This document shows positions 38,954 to 49,479 of a stretch of DNA of 64,000 nt, piece after piece. How positions within the stretch are numbered: position 1 is the first letter of the stretch; each line of letters begins with the position of its first letter. This DNA is from Microbacterium sp. Root61 (GTDB lineage Bacteria > Actinomycetota > Actinomycetes > Actinomycetales > Microbacteriaceae). A program made the position numbers and the translations under genes. Where the stretch lies: contig NZ_LMGU01000001.1 in NCBI RefSeq assembly GCF_001427525.1, forward strand, positions 1 through 64,000, read 5' to 3'. The notes below the pieces were generated by a model that was not told the DNA's origin, did no database searches, and saw only the letters and a list, made by a program, of their open reading frames with translations.

Positions 38954-39027
38954 GTGCCCGGCGGCGTGCCGAGGCCGATCCTGCGGTGACACGCGACGCG
39001 AGAACCTCGTACCCCTATGCTGGCCGC

Positions 39028-42000
39028 GTGGACGCCGTCTGGGTGGGCCTGGGAATTGCCGTCTTGGGACTGACCCTCCTGGACGTCTTTCTCACTGCGC
39101 TCAACTATGACGAGGCGGGCTTCTTCGCCGGGCGTCTCGCCTCGTGGCAGTGGAGCCTGATCCGGCAGATCACGCGCCGTCTCTCCCGTCGCTGGCGGCC
39201 GGTCGTGCTGCGCCAGGTGACCGGCCTGCAGATCATGGTGACGGTGCTGGCGTGGATCGGCGGGGTGATCCTCGGTTTCGGCCTGATCTACCTCGGTCTG
39301 ATGCAGGGCAAGAGCTTCCTCTACGACGGGGTGCACGCCGACCTGTTCGGCGCGATCTACTTCAGCGCGGCGCAGCTGGCCACGGTCGGCACGTCGCAGC
39401 TGACGCCGAACACCGACGTGCTCCGGGTGCTCTCCATCGCCGAGACCCTGACCGGGGTGGTACTGGTCTCGCTGATCCTCACGTTCCTGCTCGGCATCTA
39501 CGACGTCATCAGCTCGCTGCGCAGCCTCTCGTCTCAGTTCTTCAGCGCGGGACGCGGGGTGGGCGAGCCGATCGCGAGCCTGAAGCCGTACTTCCCGGAG
39601 GGCAGGTCGCGCGGACTGGACGGGCACTTGGACTCGATCTCGGACAGCTTCGGCTCGTACACCGACGGCGTGCGGCTGCACCACGCCGCGTACTACTTCC
39701 AGAGCGGACGCGACACGTTCTCACTGCCGTACTCGGTCCGCATGCTCAGCGGCGTGATCGCGGGGCTGCGCTGGGGGCTGCCGGCCTCGAACCCCGTCAC
39801 GCAGGAGCCGACGCTGCTGCCCCTCACCGAGCAGTTCGACAAGTTCCAGGCGTACATGCACCCGCTGCTGAACTGGAAGAGCACGGATGTGCCCGAGGCG
39901 CTGTCGCGTGCGGACTTCGACCGGCTGATCGAGGCCGACCGCAAGCTGCACGGTTCGATGAACCGCCGGCGTGCGGCGAAGCTGGCGGATGCCGGTGACC
40001 CGTGGGTGACGCGATTCGCCGGGGTCAACCGCGACATGGGCGAGCTCGTGCAGGAGGCCCCTTTCGTCGACCTCGAGGAGGCCTACGCTCGGTACCTCCA
40101 GTGGCTGCCGTTCGCGTATCACGCGCGGCAGTTCACCATCGCGGTGAGCAAGGATCTCGACTACCAGCCGGTCTATTCGAACGGCACCGATCAGGTCGAG
40201 GATGCGGTGCTGATCCCGCCGTCTCCGAAGAAGCTCCCGTCCCGCATCCGATCGTTCTTCCACCGCCGCATGACGCTGATCGACCCGGGGTTGTCGAGGG
40301 CCATCGATGCGCTGCGGGTGCTGGGTGCGGCCATCTTCACGGTCGTCGTAGTGGTCGGCGTGGGGTTCGCCGCGACCGGATCGGCGCCGATGCAGATCGC
40401 CATCTTCGGCGGCATGATCACGATGTTCGCGGCCTCCGCGGCCGGCGCCGGCCGCGGACGATCCGGCTGGGGCAGGTTCGCCGGGGTGGTCGTGATCATT
40501 CCGGTGCTCGCGGCAATCGGCCTCGACGCGATCGTGCCCGCGGGACCGCTGATCTCCGCCATCGTGCTGGTGCTCCTGGCGTTCGTCGGGATGATCCTGG
40601 CCGGATTCGGTCCGATGTGGGGCGGGTTCGGTCAGCTCGCGTTCGTGACGTTCTACTTCATCCTGCTGCTGCGCCTGAGTCCGAGGGAGTGGCTGCTCTA
40701 TGCCCTCACCGCGACCCTCAGCGTCATCGTCGCCGTCCTGATCCAGGCGATCCCGAACCGCAACGCGCATGCCCGCGTCGTGGTGGGCGGCGTGAATGCG
40801 CTCGAGCTGCGCATCGCTCGCGTGATGGACCCGCTGATCGACACCGTCTCGGCCGCGCGGTGGGATCCGGACCTGCGCCGCCGCGTCCACGCCGAACTGA
40901 AGCAGCTGCACCACGCCGCATCCTTCCTGAGCGGGCAGCTGGTGGAGCCGGACTCCGAGCTCGGCCTCACGCCGGGGCAGCTGGACGCCCTGCGCATGCG
41001 CGTGTTCGACGTCGAGCTCGCGGTCGTCAACCTGGCGACGGCGGCCCGATCGGCCACCGGGCTGCGGGTGCCGGTGCCGATCCGGGCGCTCCTCGCCGGC
41101 GAGCTGGAGCATGTGCAGAAGCACGTGCGGGAATACCCGGAGCGCCCGACGTGGGCGACCTCCGGCGACGACTCCTCGGCAGCCGTCCACCCCGCCCTCG
41201 CGTTCCGCGACCCGCCCGTCGATTGGCCCCCGCAGGCCCGGCAGGTCCACCGTGCCCTGTACGAGCTGGTGACCGCCACGGATGCGCTGCACACCGCGGG
41301 CAGCGCTGAGCTCGGCAGCAACGTGACGGCGACCGATGACCAGGAGGAGCCGGCGGATGCGACCGCGGCGTGGGGGGCCCCACCGGCCGCGGATGCCACG
41401 TCGGAGGGGACGGCGTCGCCCACGGACGCGACGGAGGATCCCGCATCCGAGGGAGAAGCGGAGACGGATGCCGCCGCCGCAGCCGGTCCGGCCGGTGCGA
41501 CGTCGCCCACGTCGGATGCCGATGCGTCGCCGTTCGCCGCCCCGCTGAGACGCGCCGTTCAGGCCGCGCTGTCGACCGGGCTCGCGCTGTGGGTCGGGTC
41601 GCTGATCTCGACGAGCTACCAGTACTGGGCTGTGATGCCCGCGCACCAGGTGCTGGGCGAGACCGACGGGGAGACCTACCGCAAGGGGACGCAGCGGATC
41701 CTCGCCACCGTCGCAGGCGCCACCGTGGGCTTCGGGCTCGCCATCACCGTCGGCAGCAATCCCGCCGTGCTGCTGCCGGCGCTCGCGCTGACCTTTTTCG
41801 CCTCCACCTACTTCCGGGCGGTGTCGGCGCCGCTGTCGACCTTCTGGCAGACGATGATGTTCGCGATGCTCTACGAGTACCTCGGCAAGCTCGACACCGA
41901 GACGATCGAGCTGCGCATCCTGGAGACCGTCGTCGGCGCCGTCATCGCCCTCGTGGTGGCCGCCCTCATCCTGCCGACCCGCACCCGTACCCGCCTGAAC

Positions 42001-42561
42001 ACCGACACGATGCGCCTCGTCCGCACGGTGAAGGACGTCACCGAGCGGTGCCTGCAGCGGCTGAGCAACGACCCCGCCGCAGCCGGATTCGACAGGAAGT
42101 CCTTCGCGCACGAAGAACTGCAGATGACCGCCCAGCTGCGCCGCGTGCAGGCGACCGCGGCACCGCTGCGACGCGCGTCCGGCGCTCTGGACGTCCACGG
42201 CATCGAGGGGCAGCTGACGGCGCTGTGGGCGCTGCTGCTGTACACACGGCACCTGATCGCCGCCACAGACGCGCTGGCACCCGCCGAGAACACGCTGACG
42301 GCCGACGAGTGGGACCAGGTGCGCACCGTGTGCGAGGACGACTTCGACGTGCTGCTCACGGTGCTCGACGGGCGGCTGCCGGCTGCGCTGCAGGAAGACA
42401 TCCCGCTCGCCGATCGCGACGACTCCGGTGACAGCAGGACGCTGGAGGCCGTGCTGAGCTCGATCGCGCGCATCGATCAGACGCTCGCCGTGATGATCGA
42501 CAACGCCCAGCCCGACACCGGCCGATTCGCGCGCATCCGTTCCGCGCTCGCGTCGAAGTAG
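39028..42561 (+). CDS. Large membrane protein: ion-channel-like pore module plus FUSC domains
   Basis: 1177 aa. The N-terminus (to about residue 190) has hydrophobic segments around a pore-loop-like FGAIYFSAAQLATVGTSQLTP, resembling two-helix K+ channels but with TVGTS for TVGYG. A soluble region of about 240 residues is followed by a first block of about six helices (430-580), a helical region, a 70-residue Ala/Glu/Thr-rich linker (about 770-835) and a second block of FUSC-type helices (855-985) with a cytoplasmic tail. FUSC proteins are linked to aromatic-acid efflux. The start GTG 39028 follows TATGCT by 6 nt (leaderless); GTG 38986 would add 14 residues. Confidence 0.8.
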   Translation: MDAVWVGLGIAVLGLTLLDVFLTALNYDEAGFFAGRLASWQWSLIRQITRRLSRRWRPVVLRQVTGLQIMVTVLAWIGGVILGFGLIYLGLMQGKSFLYDGVHADLFGAIYFSAAQLATVGTSQLTPNTDVLRVLSIAETLTGVVLVSLILTFLLGIYDVISSLRSLSSQFFSAGRGVGEPIASLKPYFPEGRSRGLDGHLDSISDSFGSYTDGVRLHHAAYYFQSGRDTFSLPYSVRMLSGVIAGLRWGLPASNPVTQEPTLLPLTEQFDKFQAYMHPLLNWKSTDVPEALSRADFDRLIEADRKLHGSMNRRRAAKLADAGDPWVTRFAGVNRDMGELVQEAPFVDLEEAYARYLQWLPFAYHARQFTIAVSKDLDYQPVYSNGTDQVEDAVLIPPSPKKLPSRIRSFFHRRMTLIDPGLSRAIDALRVLGAAIFTVVVVVGVGFAATGSAPMQIAIFGGMITMFAASAAGAGRGRSGWGRFAGVVVIIPVLAAIGLDAIVPAGPLISAIVLVLLAFVGMILAGFGPMWGGFGQLAFVTFYFILLLRLSPREWLLYALTATLSVIVAVLIQAIPNRNAHARVVVGGVNALELRIARVMDPLIDTVSAARWDPDLRRRVHAELKQLHHAASFLSGQLVEPDSELGLTPGQLDALRMRVFDVELAVVNLATAARSATGLRVPVPIRALLAGELEHVQKHVREYPERPTWATSGDDSSAAVHPALAFRDPPVDWPPQARQVHRALYELVTATDALHTAGSAELGSNVTATDDQEEPADATAAWGAPPAADATSEGTASPTDATEDPASEGEAETDAAAAAGPAGATSPTSDADASPFAAPLRRAVQAALSTGLALWVGSLISTSYQYWAVMPAHQVLGETDGETYRKGTQRILATVAGATVGFGLAITVGSNPAVLLPALALTFFASTYFRAVSAPLSTFWQTMMFAMLYEYLGKLDTETIELRILETVVGAVIALVVAALILPTRTRTRLNTDTMRLVRTVKDVTERCLQRLSNDPAAAGFDRKSFAHEELQMTAQLRRVQATAAPLRRASGALDVHGIEGQLTALWALLLYTRHLIAATDALAPAENTLTADEWDQVRTVCEDDFDVLLTVLDGRLPAALQEDIPLADRDDSGDSRTLEAVLSSIARIDQTLAVMIDNAQPDTGRFARIRSALASK

Positions 42562-42735: not shown

Positions 42736-43041
42736 ATGAACCTCACTCCACGGGAAATCGACAAGCTCTACGTGTACCAAGTGGCGGAACTCGCCCGGCG
42801 CCGACGCGAGCGAGGCACGAAGCTCAACGTCAGCGAGGCCATCGCCCTCATCTCGGAGGCCATCCTCGAGGGGGCCCGCGACGGACGATCCGTCGCCGAG
42901 GTGATGGAGCTCGGCAAGACGATCGTCTCCGAGAAGGACTGCATGGACGGGGTGCGCGAGCGCCTGCCGCTGCTGCAGGTGGAGGCGACCTTCGTCGACG
43001 GCAGCAAGCTCGTCTCCTGCCACGATCCGATCGGGGTATGA
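42736..43041 (+). CDS. ureA: Urease gamma subunit
   Basis: 101 aa, standard size. [23 protein letters not shown], then [21 protein letters not shown] and [19 protein letters not shown] are highly conserved. Structural subunit of the nickel urease trimer. GGGGAAG lies before ATG 42736. First gene of the operon; the next gene starts 1 nt after its stop. Confidence 0.97.
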
Positions 43042-43042
43042 C

Positions 43043-43906
43043 GTGACGCAGCCCGCCGCGCCGAGTGCGACGGTGGTGCTGGTGGGGGGACACGAGAGCG
43101 CGAACGGCGCCGATCTGCTGTACCTCACCGACCTCGTGCCGCACTCGATCGTGACCCCCGCCGGGCGGCCGCTGCACAACCTGATCACCCGGTTGATCGC
43201 CGCAGATGACGCACCCATCGTCGTCATTCCGATGACGTTCGGTCGCAACCCGACGTTCGTCGCGGACACCGCCAAGACGTTGAAGTGGCTGGCCGGCAGC
43301 GCGCACGGCCGGCTCGCACTGGCCGACTCGTTCGGCACCGACGATCACCTCACGGCGTGGCTGCGCACTGCCGCCGGCGCGGTGCACCGCACCGCACCCG
43401 ATGCCGCCTTGGCGGTCTGGGCGGCGGCCGCGAATCCGTTCGACGACGCGGAGCTGTACCGGATCGCGCACCTCGTCCGCACGCACGGCGCCGGCAACGT
43501 CGTCGAGGTCGCCATCACGGATGGGGATGCCGGCATGATCGAGGCCCTGAGCCGGCTTCGGATGCTCGGCAGCACGAGCGCGGTCGTCGTGCCCGCGGGC
43601 TTCGGGCGCGAGTCGCCGATCCCCGCGGACGAGCGCGGGTACGCCGAGTTCTTCGGGCCGCTGATGAGTGAATCCGCGGTGGTCCGCGTCATCCAGGAGC
43701 GTGTCCGGGATGCCCTGCACGAACTCGGGCACGGCCGCACCGGCATCGAGGCGGGGCTGCAGGCCGACCACGGGCACGGATACGCGCATTCGCATGCGTT
43801 CGAGGAATCGACCGGCCACACCCACTCCCACGGTGGACACTCGCACAGCCACGGCGGCGGCGAGACCCACTCCCACTCACAGGGCGAGCACGTCCACGCA
43901 CACTGA
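43043..43906 (+). CDS. CbiX/SirB-like chelatase-family protein with His-rich tail, in the urease operon
   Basis: 287 aa. Residues 1-235 resemble a two-domain class II chelatase (CbiX/SirB): an N-terminal LVGGHES with His17, VIPMTFGRNPTFVADT, and in the second half VVVPAGFGRESPIP. From about residue 240 the tail is repeated His-Ser/Gly, with about 15 His in the last 46 residues, a metal-binding composition. It lies between ureA and ureB, and no ureE is present in the operon, so a nickel-delivery or storage role in place of UreE is a reasonable inference. It starts at GTG 43043. The His-rich reading continues in the +1 frame past the stop (43899-43940). Confidence 0.82.
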   Translation: MTQPAAPSATVVLVGGHESANGADLLYLTDLVPHSIVTPAGRPLHNLITRLIAADDAPIVVIPMTFGRNPTFVADTAKTLKWLAGSAHGRLALADSFGTDDHLTAWLRTAAGAVHRTAPDAALAVWAAAANPFDDAELYRIAHLVRTHGAGNVVEVAITDGDAGMIEALSRLRMLGSTSAVVVPAGFGRESPIPADERGYAEFFGPLMSESAVVRVIQERVRDALHELGHGRTGIEAGLQADHGHGYAHSHAFEESTGHTHSHGGHSHSHGGGETHSHSQGEHVHAH

Positions 43907-43965: not shown

Positions 43966-44403
43966 ATGCTAGGCAGTCCCAAGTACCACCACCGCACCGA
44001 CGACATCGAGATCAACGCCGGGCGCCCGAGCGTGACGCTGCTGGTCAGCAACACCGGCGACCGCGCCGTCCAGATCGGGTCGCACTTCCACTTCTTCGAG
44101 GTCAACAAGGCCCTGCTGTTCGAGCGCGAGCTCGCGTACGGCATGCATCTGGACATGCCCGCCGGCACAGGTGTGCGCTTCGAAGCCGGCGACACGAAGG
44201 AAGTGACGCTGACGGCGTATGCGGGCAACCGGCACATCATCGGCTTCAACGGTCTCGTCAACGGCGGGCTGGATGCCGCCTCCACCAAGGTGCGCGCGAT
44301 GGCGCTGATGACCGAGCTCGGGTTCAAGAACGGCAAGCCGACTGCGCGCAAGAGCTCCAGCCGCGCCAAAAGCACCACCACGGCGAAGAAGGGGACGAAG
44401 TAA
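43966..44403 (+). CDS. ureB: Urease beta subunit
   Basis: 145 aa. The conserved core ([32 protein letters not shown], then RLDIPAGT-like [13 protein letters not shown] and [14 protein letters not shown]) covers residues 15-105. A Lys/Ser/Thr-rich tail of about 30 residues extends beyond typical UreB. GGGAAGG precedes ATG 43966. The TAATG junction overlaps ureC by 1 nt. Confidence 0.96.
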
Positions 44404-46127
44404 TGGCCATCATCTCGCGCAAGCAGTACACCGACCTGTTCGGCCCCACGGTCGGCGACCGGGTGCAGCTGGCCGACACCAACCTCGTGATCGAGATCGA
44501 GAAGGACTTCAACGAGGGGCACTACGGCGACGAGGTCGTCTACGGCGGTGGCAAAACCGCCCGCGACGGCATGGCCGCGGACCCGCAGGCCACCAACGAC
44601 CAGATGGTGCTGGATCTGGTGATCACCAACGCGATCATCCTGGATCCGATCCTGGGCGTCGTGAAGGGCGACATCGGCATCCGCGACGGAAAGATCGCGG
44701 GCATCGGCAAGTCCGGCAACCCGCACACGCAGAGCGGCGTCGACCCCCGGCTGGTCGTCGGGACGGGCACCGAGATCCTGGCCGGCGAGCACCTCATCGC
44801 CACCGCGGGCGGCATCGACAGCCACGTGCACTACATCTCTCCCCAGCAGGCCTATGCCGCACTCTCCAACGGGATCACGACGCTGTTCGGCGGTGGCACC
44901 GGGCCGACGGATGCCACGAACGGCGTGACCACGACGCCGGGCGTGTGGAACCTCGCCCGACTCCTCGAGTCCGCCGAGGCGATGCCGGTGAACATGGGCT
45001 TCCACGGCAAGGGCAACGGATCGTTGCCGGAGGCGCTCATCGAGCAGATCGAGGCCGGCGCAGCCGGACTCAAGGTGCACGAGGACTTCGGTGCCACACC
45101 TGCCGCACTGAGCATGGCCCTGAACGTCGCCGACCGGTTCGACGTGCAGGTGTCGCTGCACTCGGACAGCCTCAACGAAGCCGGGTACGTCGAGGACACC
45201 CTCGACGCGATCGACGGCCGCACCATCCACACGTTCCACACCGAAGGTGCGGGCGGCGGGCACGCGCCGGACATCATCAAGGTCGCGGGGCATCCCAACG
45301 TGCTCCCGTCCTCGACCAACCCGACGCTGCCGTACACGGTGAACTCGGTCGACGAGCTGCTCGACATGGTCATGGTCTGCCACCACCTCTCGCACGACAT
45401 CCCGGAGGACGTCTCGTTCGCCGACTCGCGCGTGCGTGCGGAGACGATCTCGGCCGAGACGGTCTTCCACGATGAGGGCATCATCTCGATGGTGTCGTCC
45501 GACTCGCAGGCGATGGGCCGCGTGGGGGAGTCGTTCATGCGTACCTTCCAGGTTGCGCACCACTGCAAGGACCAGCGCGGCAAGCTGCCGGAGGACGCGG
45601 AGGACAACGACAACTTCCGCGTGCTGCGCTACCTGGCCAAGATCACGATCAACCCCGCGATCACGCAGGGCGTCTCGGACTACATCGGGTCGCTCGAAGT
45701 GGGCAAGATCGCCGACATCGTGCTGTGGCCGGTGGACTCGTTCGCGGCGAAGCCCAAGCTGATCGTCAAGGGCGGCCTGATCAACTGGGCGCTGATGGGT
45801 GACCCGAACGCATCGCTGCCGACGCCGCAGCCGGTGTACTTCCGGCCGATGTTCGGGGCGCAGGGGCGCGCGCTGCAATCCACGCGCGTAACCTTCATGT
45901 CGCAGGCGGCCATCGACAAGGGCATTCCGGAGAAGCTGTCGCTGGAGAGCCAGGTGCTGCCGGTGCACAAGTGCCGCACGGTCGGCAAGGAGCACATGGT
46001 GCGCAACAGCGCGACACCGGTCATCGAGGTGGACCCGGAGACGTACGTCGTGACGTACGACGGCAAGGTCGCCACCATCGACCCGGCGCAGTCGCTGCCG
46101 CTCACCCAGCTGTTCTTCCTCGCGTAA
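44403..46127 (+). CDS. ureC: Urease alpha (catalytic) subunit
   Basis: 574 aa. Hydrolyses urea to ammonia and carbamate at a di-nickel centre. Metal ligands are in [19 protein letters not shown] and [12 protein letters not shown]; the carbamylated bridging Lys is Lys224 (GLKVHED); the mobile flap has Cys326-His-His (MVCHHLSHD). All key residues are present, so it should be active. Starts at ATG 44403. Confidence 0.98.
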
Positions 46128-46135
46128 GGGGCGGC

Positions 46136-46831
46136 ATGGCGAACTCGGATGTGCGTCAGCTGCTCTCGAGCCTGCAGTTCTCCGACTCGGCGTTCCCGAG
46201 CGGCTTCTACACGATGTCCCACGGACTGGAGGGGTATGCGCAGGCCCGTCTCGTGGAGCGCGGCGACGTGCAGGAGCTGCTCGCGGAGCTGCTGACGCAT
46301 TCGGTGGGGCCGGGGGATGCCACCGCGCTCGCCGCCGCGCACCGTGCGGCTCTCGCCGCGGACTGGGGGCTGGTGCAGGAGGTCGATCAGCGGCTGTTCG
46401 CGTCCAAACTGAACGCCGAGATGCGCCGGGCATCGGTGCGCAGCGGCCATCAGCTCACCGATCTCGCGGGAGAGGTGATCGGCGGACCGGCGCTCGCCGA
46501 GTACGGGCGACGCGTCACGGCCGGCACGACACCGGGCTGCCAACCCGTCGCGACGGCCATGGTCTACGCGGACAGCGGGGTCGAGACGGAGCAGGCCGTG
46601 GCATCCGATCTGTTCGCCTTCGCGGTGAGCTTCGTCGGCGCCGCGCTGCGTCTGCGACTGACCGATCACCGGCACGCGCAGGTGATGCTGCACGGCACCG
46701 GCGCGGTCATCGAGCAGGTGGCGGCGGATGCCGTGGCTCGGGATCTCGCGGATCTCGGCGGCTGCGCGCCCGTCGCCGACATCATGTCCGCCCAGCACGA
46801 GAGAGCCGAGGCGCGCCTGTTCGCCAGCTGA
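46136..46831 (+). CDS. ureF: Urease accessory protein UreF
   Basis: 231 aa, all-helical. LLSSLQFSDSAFPSGFYTMSHGLE at the N-terminus is the UreF signature. Part of the UreF-UreD(H)-UreG activation complex that inserts nickel. ATG 46136 lies 8 nt after ureC; the open frame reaching 45971 overlaps ureC and is spurious. Confidence 0.93.
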   Translation: MANSDVRQLLSSLQFSDSAFPSGFYTMSHGLEGYAQARLVERGDVQELLAELLTHSVGPGDATALAAAHRAALAADWGLVQEVDQRLFASKLNAEMRRASVRSGHQLTDLAGEVIGGPALAEYGRRVTAGTTPGCQPVATAMVYADSGVETEQAVASDLFAFAVSFVGAALRLRLTDHRHAQVMLHGTGAVIEQVAADAVARDLADLGGCAPVADIMSAQHERAEARLFAS

Positions 46832-46875: not shown

Positions 46876-47511
46876 ATGAGCGAGAACGTCCTGAGGATCG
46901 GCATCGGGGGCCCTGTCGGGTCCGGCAAGACCGCACTCACCGAGGCGCTGGTGCCGCTGCTGATCGCGGCGGGGCGCACGCCCGGCGTCATCACCAACGA
47001 CATCTACACGCAGGAGGACGCGCAGCACGTGCGGCGCGAGCTCGCCGGCATCCTGGATCCCGAACGCGTCGTCGGCGTCGAGACCGGCGCCTGCCCGCAT
47101 ACCGCGGTGCGGGATGACCCGACGATGAACCTCGCCGCCGGTGCCGAGATGCTGCAGCGGTTCCCCGACATCGACACGCTCATCTACGAGTCCGGCGGAG
47201 ACAACCTGACGCTCACCTTCTCGCCGGCGCTCGCCGACGTGTTCGTGTTCGTGCTCGACACGGCCGAGGGGGAGAAGATGCCCCGCAAGCGGGGTCCGGG
47301 CATCACCGAGAGCGACATCCTGGTGATCAACAAGATCGACATCGCGCAGTACGTGCGCACCAACCTCGATGTGATGCACAGCGACGCCCTCCGGGTGCGC
47401 GATGACAAGCCCGTGGTGCTGACCAACTCGCTCACCGGCGAGGGCCTGGCGCAGCTGCACGAGCAGATCATGTCGCACTGGGCGCAGTCCCGAGCCGAAC
47501 TGGTCGGATGA
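46876..47511 (+). CDS. ureG: Urease accessory GTPase UreG
   Basis: 211 aa. P-loop GIGGPVGSGKTALTE, the nickel-binding ETGACPHTAVRDD (Cys-Pro-His), ESGGDNLTLTFSP and the NKID guanine motif. It couples GTP hydrolysis to nickel delivery. ATG 46876 has GAGGAGA upstream; ureD overlaps the stop by 4 nt. Confidence 0.97.
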   Translation: MSENVLRIGIGGPVGSGKTALTEALVPLLIAAGRTPGVITNDIYTQEDAQHVRRELAGILDPERVVGVETGACPHTAVRDDPTMNLAAGAEMLQRFPDIDTLIYESGGDNLTLTFSPALADVFVFVLDTAEGEKMPRKRGPGITESDILVINKIDIAQYVRTNLDVMHSDALRVRDDKPVVLTNSLTGEGLAQLHEQIMSHWAQSRAELVG

Positions 47512-48542
47512 CGGCCCCCACCGCTGTGGCGGCGGAGATCGACACCGACGAGCCCGCCGAGCAACTCGCGCCGGTGGTGCCGCTGCGCGCGCCGAACGCG
47601 GGCGGGTACCGTCTGCAGCCCGAGTACTACGAACCGAAACGGGTGCCGATCGAAGTGCAGCGGCACGCCGGGTCGCAGCCGATCCTGCCGGTCGGCAGCC
47701 CCGGCAAGGTGGGCATCCTGCAGCTCGGTTTCGCGCAGAACCGCGGCCGCACCGAGCTGGTGCAGCACTACCAGAAGTCCCCGCTGCAGATCATGCACCC
47801 GCTGTACTTCAACCCCGAGCGCCCCGACATGGCATACACGTACCTGATGTCGACGGGTGGGGGGATCGTGCAGGGCGACCGGCTGCGCACCGACCTGGCC
47901 TTCGGTCCCGGCACATCGGCGTACGTGACCACTCAGGCGCACACGCGGGCGTACCGGATGGAGCACGACTACGCGGTCTCGCTCATGAACATCACCGTGG
48001 AGGCGGATGCGTACGTCGAGTACCTGCCGGAGCCGGTCGTGCCGTTCGCGCAGTCGCGGCTGTACCAGCAGACCGAGGTCGTGCTCGACGAGTCCGCGAC
48101 CCTGCTGCTCGGCGAGATCGTGTACGCCGGGCGCCTGGCGCGCGGAGAACGGCACGAGTACGACGTGTACGCATCCGATCTCGAGGTGCGCCGCCCCGAT
48201 GGGCGCCTCGTCGCGCTGGACCGGGTGCGGCTCTGCCCCGGCGATGAGGGCGGGGTCGAGGGGCTCGGCGTGCTCGCCGACCACGACATCCTCGCGATGC
48301 TCTACGTGTTCACGTCCCGTGTGCCGGTGGCGGCGCTCGCCGACTGCCTGCACGCCGCGCTCGCCGACGAGTACGACGACGACCTGATGTTCGGGGTCAG
48401 CGCGCTGCCCGGCGACGCCGGTGTCTGGGTGCGACTGGTCGGCAACGACCCGGTGGCGATGGCGCGCGCGAACACCGCCGCGACCGCCGCGGCCCACGAG
48501 CTTCTGACCGGTGCGCCGGCGCCGATCATCCGCAAGAGCTAG
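47508..48542 (+). CDS. ureD: Urease accessory protein UreD (UreH)
   Basis: 344 aa. GKVGILQLGFAQNRGRTELVQ, then YLMSTGGGIVQGDRL, TTQAHTRAYRM and EYLPEPVVPFAQSR are standard UreD motifs. A 50-residue N-terminal extension precedes the conserved part. Scaffold of the activation complex and nickel tunnel. ATG 47508 overlaps ureG. The transporter follows after 10 nt. Confidence 0.94.
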   Translation: MTAPTAVAAEIDTDEPAEQLAPVVPLRAPNAGGYRLQPEYYEPKRVPIEVQRHAGSQPILPVGSPGKVGILQLGFAQNRGRTELVQHYQKSPLQIMHPLYFNPERPDMAYTYLMSTGGGIVQGDRLRTDLAFGPGTSAYVTTQAHTRAYRMEHDYAVSLMNITVEADAYVEYLPEPVVPFAQSRLYQQTEVVLDESATLLLGEIVYAGRLARGERHEYDVYASDLEVRRPDGRLVALDRVRLCPGDEGGVEGLGVLADHDILAMLYVFTSRVPVAALADCLHAALADEYDDDLMFGVSALPGDAGVWVRLVGNDPVAMARANTAATAAAHELLTGAPAPIIRKS

Positions 48543-48552
48543 GAGGACCGAC

Positions 48553-49479
48553 ATGAGCCAGGCCGCGACAGCGAACTCGGTGGGGTCGTTCCGGGCGTGG
48601 CTGCTCGGGTTCGGCCGCGGGTTCTCGCAGATCTACTTCCAGGTCAACATCATCACGGCGCTGCTGATCATCGCGGCGTTCGTCGTGGCGGATTGGCGTA
48701 TGGCGATCCTGGCCGTTCTCGGCTGTGTCGCGGCGACGCTGGCGGGACGGATGCTGGGCGCCAAGGCATCCGACATCACCGCAGGTCTGCAGGGCTTCTG
48801 CGGCGCGCTCGTCGGCGCTGCCACGTTCGCCGCGATCGGGGGCGAGCAGTGGCCCGCCTACCCGATCGCCGTCGTCGGCGGAGCCCTGTGCGCACCAGTG
48901 GCGTGGCTCGTGGTGGCACTGTTCACCAAGACCCCGCTCAAGGTCTTCCAGCTGCCGTCCACGACGGCGCCGTTCTGCATCGTCGCGACCGGTGTGCTGG
49001 TGAGCACCCAGGCGCTTCATGTGACCGCCGCGGCGTCACCGACGGTCGACTCCGTGCCGCTCGCCTTCGCACGGTCGCTCCTGACGAACGTGTCGCAGGT
49101 GGTGCTGATCGACAACCTCTGGGCGGGTGCACTGATCCTCCTCGGACTGTTCGTCGCGAGCTGGAAGGTCGGCCTCGCCGCGATCATGGGCAGTGCCGTC
49201 GGCAGCGTCTGCGCGCTGCTGATGGGAGAGACCCTCACCGAGACCGCGAACGGGCTGGCCGGCTACTCCGGCGTGCTGACCGCGATCGCACTGGCGGTTG
49301 TGTTTCTCAAGAGCAGCCCGACGTCCTGGATCCTCGCGGTCATCGGCACCATCGTCACCGCGTTCGTCACCCTGTTCATGCATCAACTGTCCGGCCCGAC
49401 CTACACCTGGCCGTACATCCTGACCACGTGGGTGTTCCTGATCATCGCCCACTACATCCCGTCGGCCAAGCGCACCTGA
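48553..49479 (+). CDS. Urea transporter (UT/Yut family)
   Basis: 308 aa, about ten hydrophobic segments in two similar halves. FGRGFSQIYFQVNIITALLI, then GLQGFCGALVGAA (selectivity region), LPSTTAPFC, and in the second half NGLAGYSGVLTAIAL are UT-family motifs. It supplies urea to the urease encoded upstream. AGGAGG lies before ATG 48553. Last gene of the operon. Confidence 0.92.
   Translation: MSQAATANSVGSFRAWLLGFGRGFSQIYFQVNIITALLIIAAFVVADWRMAILAVLGCVAATLAGRMLGAKASDITAGLQGFCGALVGAATFAAIGGEQWPAYPIAVVGGALCAPVAWLVVALFTKTPLKVFQLPSTTAPFCIVATGVLVSTQALHVTAAASPTVDSVPLAFARSLLTNVSQVVLIDNLWAGALILLGLFVASWKVGLAAIMGSAVGSVCALLMGETLTETANGLAGYSGVLTAIALAVVFLKSSPTSWILAVIGTIVTAFVTLFMHQLSGPTYTWPYILTTWVFLIIAHYIPSAKRT

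Follow-up and report, generated by a model that had tools for sequence, protein, structure and literature searches.

Which protein supplies nickel to the urease of Microbacterium sp. Root61, an actinobacterium whose urease operon carries, between ureA and ureB, a gene for a His-rich protein resembling tetrapyrrole chelatases? We approached this question in a window of 64,000 nucleotides (NZ_LMGU01000001.1, positions 1 to 64,000), the window being the whole stretch of DNA that was analyzed. Based on the ORF list and Pfam, the operon has the order ureA-X-ureB-ureC-ureF-ureG-ureD-urea transporter with all genes on one strand (Table 1). Here, X is used as a label for the inserted ORF product, which begins with a GTG start codon. 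A preliminary description, made from the letters of the sequence, had already named the six ure genes and the transporter, and all of them were identified by Pfam (ureG also by TIGR00101).

Table 1 Features of the urease locus, with the domains of X and a nickel transporter gene found at related loci.
Feature	Position	Strand	Basis or remark
ureA, urease gamma subunit	42736..43041	+	Pfam PF00547, 4.6e-41
X, His-rich class II chelatase-like protein, 287 aa	43043..43906	+	ORF, homologues, alignment A1, fold
X residues 10-229, two-lobed chelatase-like core	43070..43729	+	alignment A1, predicted fold
X residues 230-287, end of helix to ~242, then His-rich tail	43730..43903	+	pLDDT, His counts
X residues 241-251, motif ADHGHGYAHSH	43763..43795	+	motif counts in homologues and loci
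ureB, urease beta subunit	43966..44403	+	Pfam PF00699, 1.3e-39
ureC, urease alpha subunit	44403..46127	+	Pfam PF00449, 3.9e-48; TIGR01792 above cut-off
ureF	46136..46831	+	Pfam PF01730, 6.2e-32
ureG, CPH present, without His-rich end	46876..47511	+	TIGR00101 above cut-off
ureD	47508..48542	+	Pfam PF01774, 2.4e-53
urea transporter	48553..49479	+	Pfam PF03253, 2.6e-63
NicO-type nickel transporter gene near urease genes	L003 14646-15839		also in nine other X loci

Operon place and sequence of X

The start codon of X lies one base past the stop codon of ureA, and a gap of 59 nt separates the end of X from the start of ureB. A scan of the urease operon for promoters and terminators found none. Directly upstream, at 38986-42561, lies a 1191-aa ORF with an apparent ion-channel part and a membrane transporter part, as judged from reading its sequence.

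The place of the ORF and the roughly 15 His residues previously counted in its last 46 positions were confirmed: X contains 25 His in total, 15 of them within this C-terminal stretch. Given a His frequency of 49/1606 in the other Ure proteins of the operon (six in number), the probability of finding at least 15 His among 46 residues is 4e-12. There is no Cys in the X of the window, and the 120 listed homologues contain 0-3 Cys per protein. These homologues stem from a protein search that scored 8000 candidates and yielded 271 relatives at an E value of 1e-3 or better, of which 120 were listed; the few that bear names are annotated as hypothetical protein, CbiX, sirohydrochlorin chelatase or cobaltochelatase.

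For alignment A1, X from the window was combined with 37 of the 120 listed homologues, and nine positions (H17, E18, G41, R68, D75, H102, R108, D134 and R140) are invariant in all 38 rows. Across 34 X loci, which extend to more distant members, conservation is complete for R68, R108 and R140 (34/34), followed by H102 (33/34), E18 (32/34), D134 (31/34) and H17, which is not strict in the most distant members (30/34). The tail motif ADHGHGYAHSH is present in exact form in 107/120 listed homologues and 26/34 loci and in a relaxed form in 119/120 and 32/34, respectively. Beyond the motif, length and sequence of the tail are highly variable among homologues, and the pLDDT of the X model falls from 97 (residues 231-240) to 66 (residues 241-250) and about 50 thereafter.

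A chelatase fold with replaced metal ligands

The model of X has a predicted class II chelatase fold with two alpha/beta lobes (pLDDT 88.5, pTM 0.81), and PDB searches with this model returned SirB, CbiK and ferrochelatases at the top. In addition, profile comparison of X without its tail (hhalign) gave a similarity to CbiX-type proteins (98.5%). The likeness to CbiX/SirB given in the preliminary description is thus supported by predicted fold and tail-less profile comparison, though Pfam assigned no family to the whole protein at E 1 or to residues 1-230 at E 10, and NCBIfam assigned none to X. Likewise, X is not among the two matches of the genome-wide search with PF01903 (CbiX), and a sequence search of the PDB with A1 gave chance matches only (E 0.17 or worse). 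The same genome encodes another two-domain CbiX protein at C1:2157910-2158443.

The metal ligands of SirB are His10, Glu43 and His76 according to the accessible text of PMC11301274, and we confirmed these positions on the SirB sequence. In the hhalign register, His76 stands opposite T71 of X, a position occupied by T, S, V, R or G in 38/38 rows and never by His, and Glu43 stands opposite V37, which is never Glu in the 38 rows. His10 corresponds to a short gap just before G16-H17 of X, and H17 may stand in for it. By this alignment, X lacks two or more of the three metal ligands known from SirB and is therefore unlikely to function as a working sirohydrochlorin chelatase.

The His-rich tail had also been described as a hallmark of nickel stores such as UreE and HypB. 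This reading proved too narrow, as true CbiX cobaltochelatases have such a tail as well: CbiX-long is described in the available part of PMC7689651 as a cobalamin enzyme with a C-terminal Fe-S motif and a His-rich region. In our dataset, the actinobacterial CbiX-type proteins of L036 (Pfam-checked) and L037 likewise combine CxxC with a His-rich tail. Since CbiX-type proteins share this feature, the tail of X may have been inherited from an ancestor of the L036/L037 type.

Urease context, UreE and the His-rich ends of UreG

The distribution of X was analyzed by scanning genome_contigs, in which each of 84,980 species is represented by a single genome, with A1, requiring one of two short peptides. 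Out of 254 pattern matches, 29 encode a relative, and all of these (29/29) are located between ureA and ureB; the peptide requirement may miss distant relatives, and urease genes were the only ones looked for in the flanks. The same arrangement is found in the window and in L186, L190, L193, L210 and L191, the latter being the same genome as L011. The preliminary description had considered that homologues might usually sit in cobalamin clusters without a link to urease, or that a ureE might be found elsewhere in the genome. No UreE was matched elsewhere in the genome, and all 29 relatives of the scan lie in urease operons, which supports the tie of X to urease. An assignment of X to cobalamin or siroheme synthesis was rejected based on its place in urease operons and the replaced ligands.

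The insertion is visible in the spacing of ureA and ureB, which amounts to 823-1060 nt in 35 X stretches (counting both L011 and L191), 3-93 nt in 26 stretches with UreE and 15-336 nt in 108 others. A gap of more than 150 nt (169-336 nt) was observed in 19 X-less stretches, of which five were read: four contain an N-terminal extension of UreB, while L203 has a short spacer only. Where the gap measures 314-336 nt (L143, L170 and L181, which were read, and others), this UreB extension comprises about 100 residues.

X is rare, with three strong matches in 296 genomes of the class and two in 296 genomes of the phylum, both inside the class (evenly drawn samples). The remaining 27 matches of the class sample are weak (best E 3e-8), and the two of them that were checked are CbiX. 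We found no description of X in the open-access literature, most subscription journals lying outside this scope, and no mention of it in the accessible parts of PMC12113805, PMC2770081, PMC2667541, PMC11301274 and PMC7689651.

The lack of a recognisable ureE, pointed out in the preliminary description, extends to the entire genome (4.02 Mb, 99.9% complete), in which neither the N-terminal (PF02814) nor the C-terminal (PF05194) UreE domain was matched; on X itself, Pfam and NCBIfam detected no UreE domain. Both domains were also without a match in the 32 X genome records searched (0/32 each), a set in which L033 is apparently the same genome as L016 and which does not comprise the genomes of L186, L190 and L193. 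In the class sample of 296 genomes, UreC was found in 142 (141 above cut-off) and the N-terminal UreE domain in 7 (6 above cut-off), so that the absence of UreE is the rule among ureases of this class (UreE in 6/141 urease genomes). UreE being mostly absent, its absence alone is no sign of a replacement. The initial view that X simply stands in place of ureE is correct regarding the missing UreE but too simple overall, since UreE is rare in the class and its exclusivity with X falls short of significance among the order stretches (see below). What stands out is that a His-rich UreG end, present in most operons lacking UreE, is missing as well.

To compare operons, we compiled 169 stretches. 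In the order sample, UreC was matched in 111/396 genomes at 136 places; 100 of the 135 non-window places were taken, the omitted ones being two near-copies, three additional good matches and otherwise second copies and weak matches. To these were added 40 hand-chosen places of the class (including four UreE genomes and one X genome), the 29 scan loci and the window, without L011. X is present in 34 stretches, 28 of which came from searching for X, UreE in 26, neither in 109 and both in none; some stretches stop at a contig end, where a gene may be missed. The proposed mutual exclusivity of X and ureE is matched by the count (0/169 with both), but it does not reach significance in the order sample, whose 101 stretches including the window comprise 5 with X, 22 with UreE and 74 with neither (UreE in 0/5 with X versus 22/96 without, p = 0.58). 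Over all 169 stretches, p = 0.003 was obtained with selection for X stretches.

The accessible text of Haas et al. (2009, PMC2770081) reports that genomes with ureG and without ureE carry a His stretch on UreG in all but two cases, and its table marks at least one such stretch as C-terminal. We called a UreG His-ended if 30 residues at its N- or C-terminus contained 4 or more His. Among the stretches in which UreG was found (all except 10, one with X and nine with neither), this state occurs in 0/33 operons with X, 1/26 with UreE and 84/100 with neither. Taking the nearer start codon gives 0/26 for UreE and 77/100 for neither, and in the order sample alone the values are 0/5, 1/22 and 65/69 for X, UreE and neither, respectively. 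A stricter His motif (gaps up to 4) is satisfied in 41/100 operons with neither but misses visible C-terminal stretches. The CPH motif is kept in all 159 UreGs, including 33/33 of the X type. For this pattern over all stretches, Fisher's test gives p <= 1e-16, which is overstated: X forms a single clade, and its association with plain UreG is effectively one evolutionary event.

Altogether, X was found together with UreE in 0/169 stretches and with a His-ended UreG in 0/33, and UreE with a His-ended UreG in 1/26. These counts suggest a three-way pattern in actinobacterial urease operons, in which X, UreE and a His-ended UreG are alternatives that rarely occur in pairs. The unusual feature of X operons is that UreE and the His-rich UreG end are both absent. 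Judged by their encoded proteins, X operons resemble UreE operons in placing the His-rich module on a separate protein, off UreG. Given that 16/100 operons with neither protein fall below the 4-His rule, a rich His stretch may not necessarily be obligatory where UreE and X are absent; 12 of these 16 keep 2-3 His, and the UreGs of L141, L148 and L216 would have a His stretch if the start lay further upstream.

Two observations were made alongside. In 72/100 operons with neither protein (order and class stretches), UreG has a His-rich C-terminal tail, often starting with DPGPMAPHxHA. In L194-L198 and L215, ureA and ureB are accompanied by a divergent ureC (42-47% identity to that of the window), and no UreG was found in the stretch.

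The phylogenetic relationship of the ureases was analyzed using a UreC tree with 168 rows, L025 being left out as too short. All 33 X rows form one clade that requires one change (SH-aLRT 100), with L192 as its sister (support 94), a locus without X and UreE whose UreG has a His-rich N-terminus. UreE requires two changes; a FastTree run gave the same counts for X and UreE, and about 14 changes for the His-ended state of UreG. The X clade spans Micrococcaceae, Microbacteriaceae, Cellulomonadaceae, Sanguibacteraceae, Nocardioidaceae, Nocardiaceae, Corynebacteriaceae and Catenulisporaceae. These families are mixed within the clade, with Rhodococcus placed near Arthrobacter and the window, which suggests a transfer of whole operons carrying X-type ureases. 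Distances of the X core and of UreC co-vary (r = 0.87, 33 taxa), a value reached in 0/2000 permutations. The simplest reading would be that X was gained once and then stayed with its urease; as most X rows stem from the search for X, members of the clade that have lost it would largely have escaped notice.

Candidate role of X in nickel supply

In some soil actinobacteria, X is probably a nickel accessory protein of urease built on a new scaffold. Specifically, we consider it likely that X stores nickel and acts as a metallochaperone dedicated to urease, using a class II chelatase fold that has lost the site for metallating tetrapyrroles. Nickel would be held by the His-rich tail and by its strict motif ADHGHGYAHSH, and the folded core with its near-invariant H17, E18, R68, H102 and R108 would dock X to the maturation machinery, i.e. 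UreG or the UreGFD complex. From X, nickel would then pass to the CPH site on UreG, and UreG would load apo-urease together with UreF and UreD. In this way, X would fill the role played in other urease operons by UreE or the His-rich end of UreG. The computed basis for this role comprises the fold, the loss of ligands, the motif, the operon place, the single clade, the co-divergence with UreC and the absence of both UreE and a His-rich UreG end. Nickel binding, docking, transfer to UreG and a requirement for X in urease activity are what we infer from the motif, the place of the gene and the complementary pattern. The link to urease nickel proposed at the outset is well supported by the comparison across operons and genomes. 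A more specific version of this role, plausible but decidedly tentative, assigns the transfer to the chelatase cleft: with H17, E18, R68, H102 and R108 as its own conserved set, it would take nickel from the protein's own His-rich tail and pass it to UreG or the UreGFD-apo-urease complex, making X a protein-directed nickel inserter.

Among the alternatives, a protein that only stores or buffers nickel comes first, in the manner of the His-rich Hpn proteins of Helicobacter. Here, the tail would sequester nickel with no specific handover complex with UreG, a scenario in line with the low-confidence prediction of the tail and its variability beyond the motif. We regard it as unlikely in view of the conservation of the core (H17, E18, R68, H102 and R108 invariant in the 38 rows), the strictness of a motif that is more than just His-rich and the occurrence of all 29 scan relatives in a urease operon. 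Even less probable is a main function in urease-subunit assembly or folding, the place between ureA and ureB then reflecting co-translational assembly, or as a nickel-responsive regulator. The invariable position in every X stretch, in the window one base past the ureA stop codon, would fit assembly, but X matches no family and thus no DNA-binding or chaperone family, and both the His/Asp tail motif and the complementarity with His-rich UreG ends point to a metal.

Some database names imply a working sirohydrochlorin chelatase for Ni, Co or Fe, which we consider very improbable: fold and tail-less profile similarity agree with it, but T71 and V37 replace His76 and Glu43, His10 falls into the gap beside H17, and the genome already has its other two-domain CbiX. 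Finally, X might have no function in urease and persist in a single urease lineage as a chance passenger, in line with the one gain on the UreC tree. This is hardly credible in view of its presence with a strict motif in all 33 rows of a multi-family clade, though most rows were found via the X search.

A role as a protein-directed nickel inserter would make X, to our knowledge, the earliest known case of a class II chelatase relative serving a protein rather than a tetrapyrrole. Helicobacter Hpn and HypB/HypA are examples of His-rich nickel handling linked to urease, but X matches none of these families and HypA is absent from the genome of the window. With UreE, X shares the urease-operon gene, the His-rich C-terminus and a UreG without His-rich end; however, ureE follows ureC in most of the 26 UreE stretches, whereas X lies between ureA and ureB and has no UreE family match. 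SirB, CbiX and CfbA (PF01903) share the fold with X, which differs by the missing Pfam match, the replaced His76 and Glu43 and strong relatives that were found in urease operons only. CbiX-long also has a chelatase core followed by a His-rich tail, but carries an MxCxxC Fe-S motif, whereas X of the window has no Cys, its own ADHGHGYAHSH and a degenerate metal site. The His-stretch UreG of mycobacteria, streptomycetes and plants provides, like X, a putative nickel-binding His module in operons without UreE; according to the accessible text of PMC2770081, this stretch is part of the GTPase, whereas X operons have it on a separate protein.

For ureases lacking UreE, the main explanation of nickel supply so far has been the His stretch of UreG (PMC2770081, accessible text). 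What is new here is a urease lineage with neither UreE nor a His-ended UreG, together with X as a named candidate supplier. If the proposed role is true, a tetrapyrrole chelatase would have been recruited as a metallochaperone for a protein, and urease would have a third route of nickel supply next to UreE and the His-ended UreG. In that case, the names 'CbiX' and 'sirohydrochlorin chelatase' on some X homologues would need correcting.

Other nickel suppliers were considered as well. HypA is absent in 29/32 X genome records, including the genome of the window, and present in the other 3; based on this, HypA/HypB were rejected as general nickel suppliers. The genome of the window gave a single match to NicO (PF03824), below cut-off, which was judged spurious as a nickel transporter because the ORFs of L239, as judged from reading them, resemble a sensor kinase and a response regulator. 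Within the fetched stretches, a NicO transporter was seen in 10/34 with X, 16/26 with UreE and 9/109 others, the gene being Pfam-checked in L003 only. Since NicO also lies near UreE and other operons, it says nothing special about X. In all six Arthrobacter X loci, NicO is located between ureD and the urea transporter.
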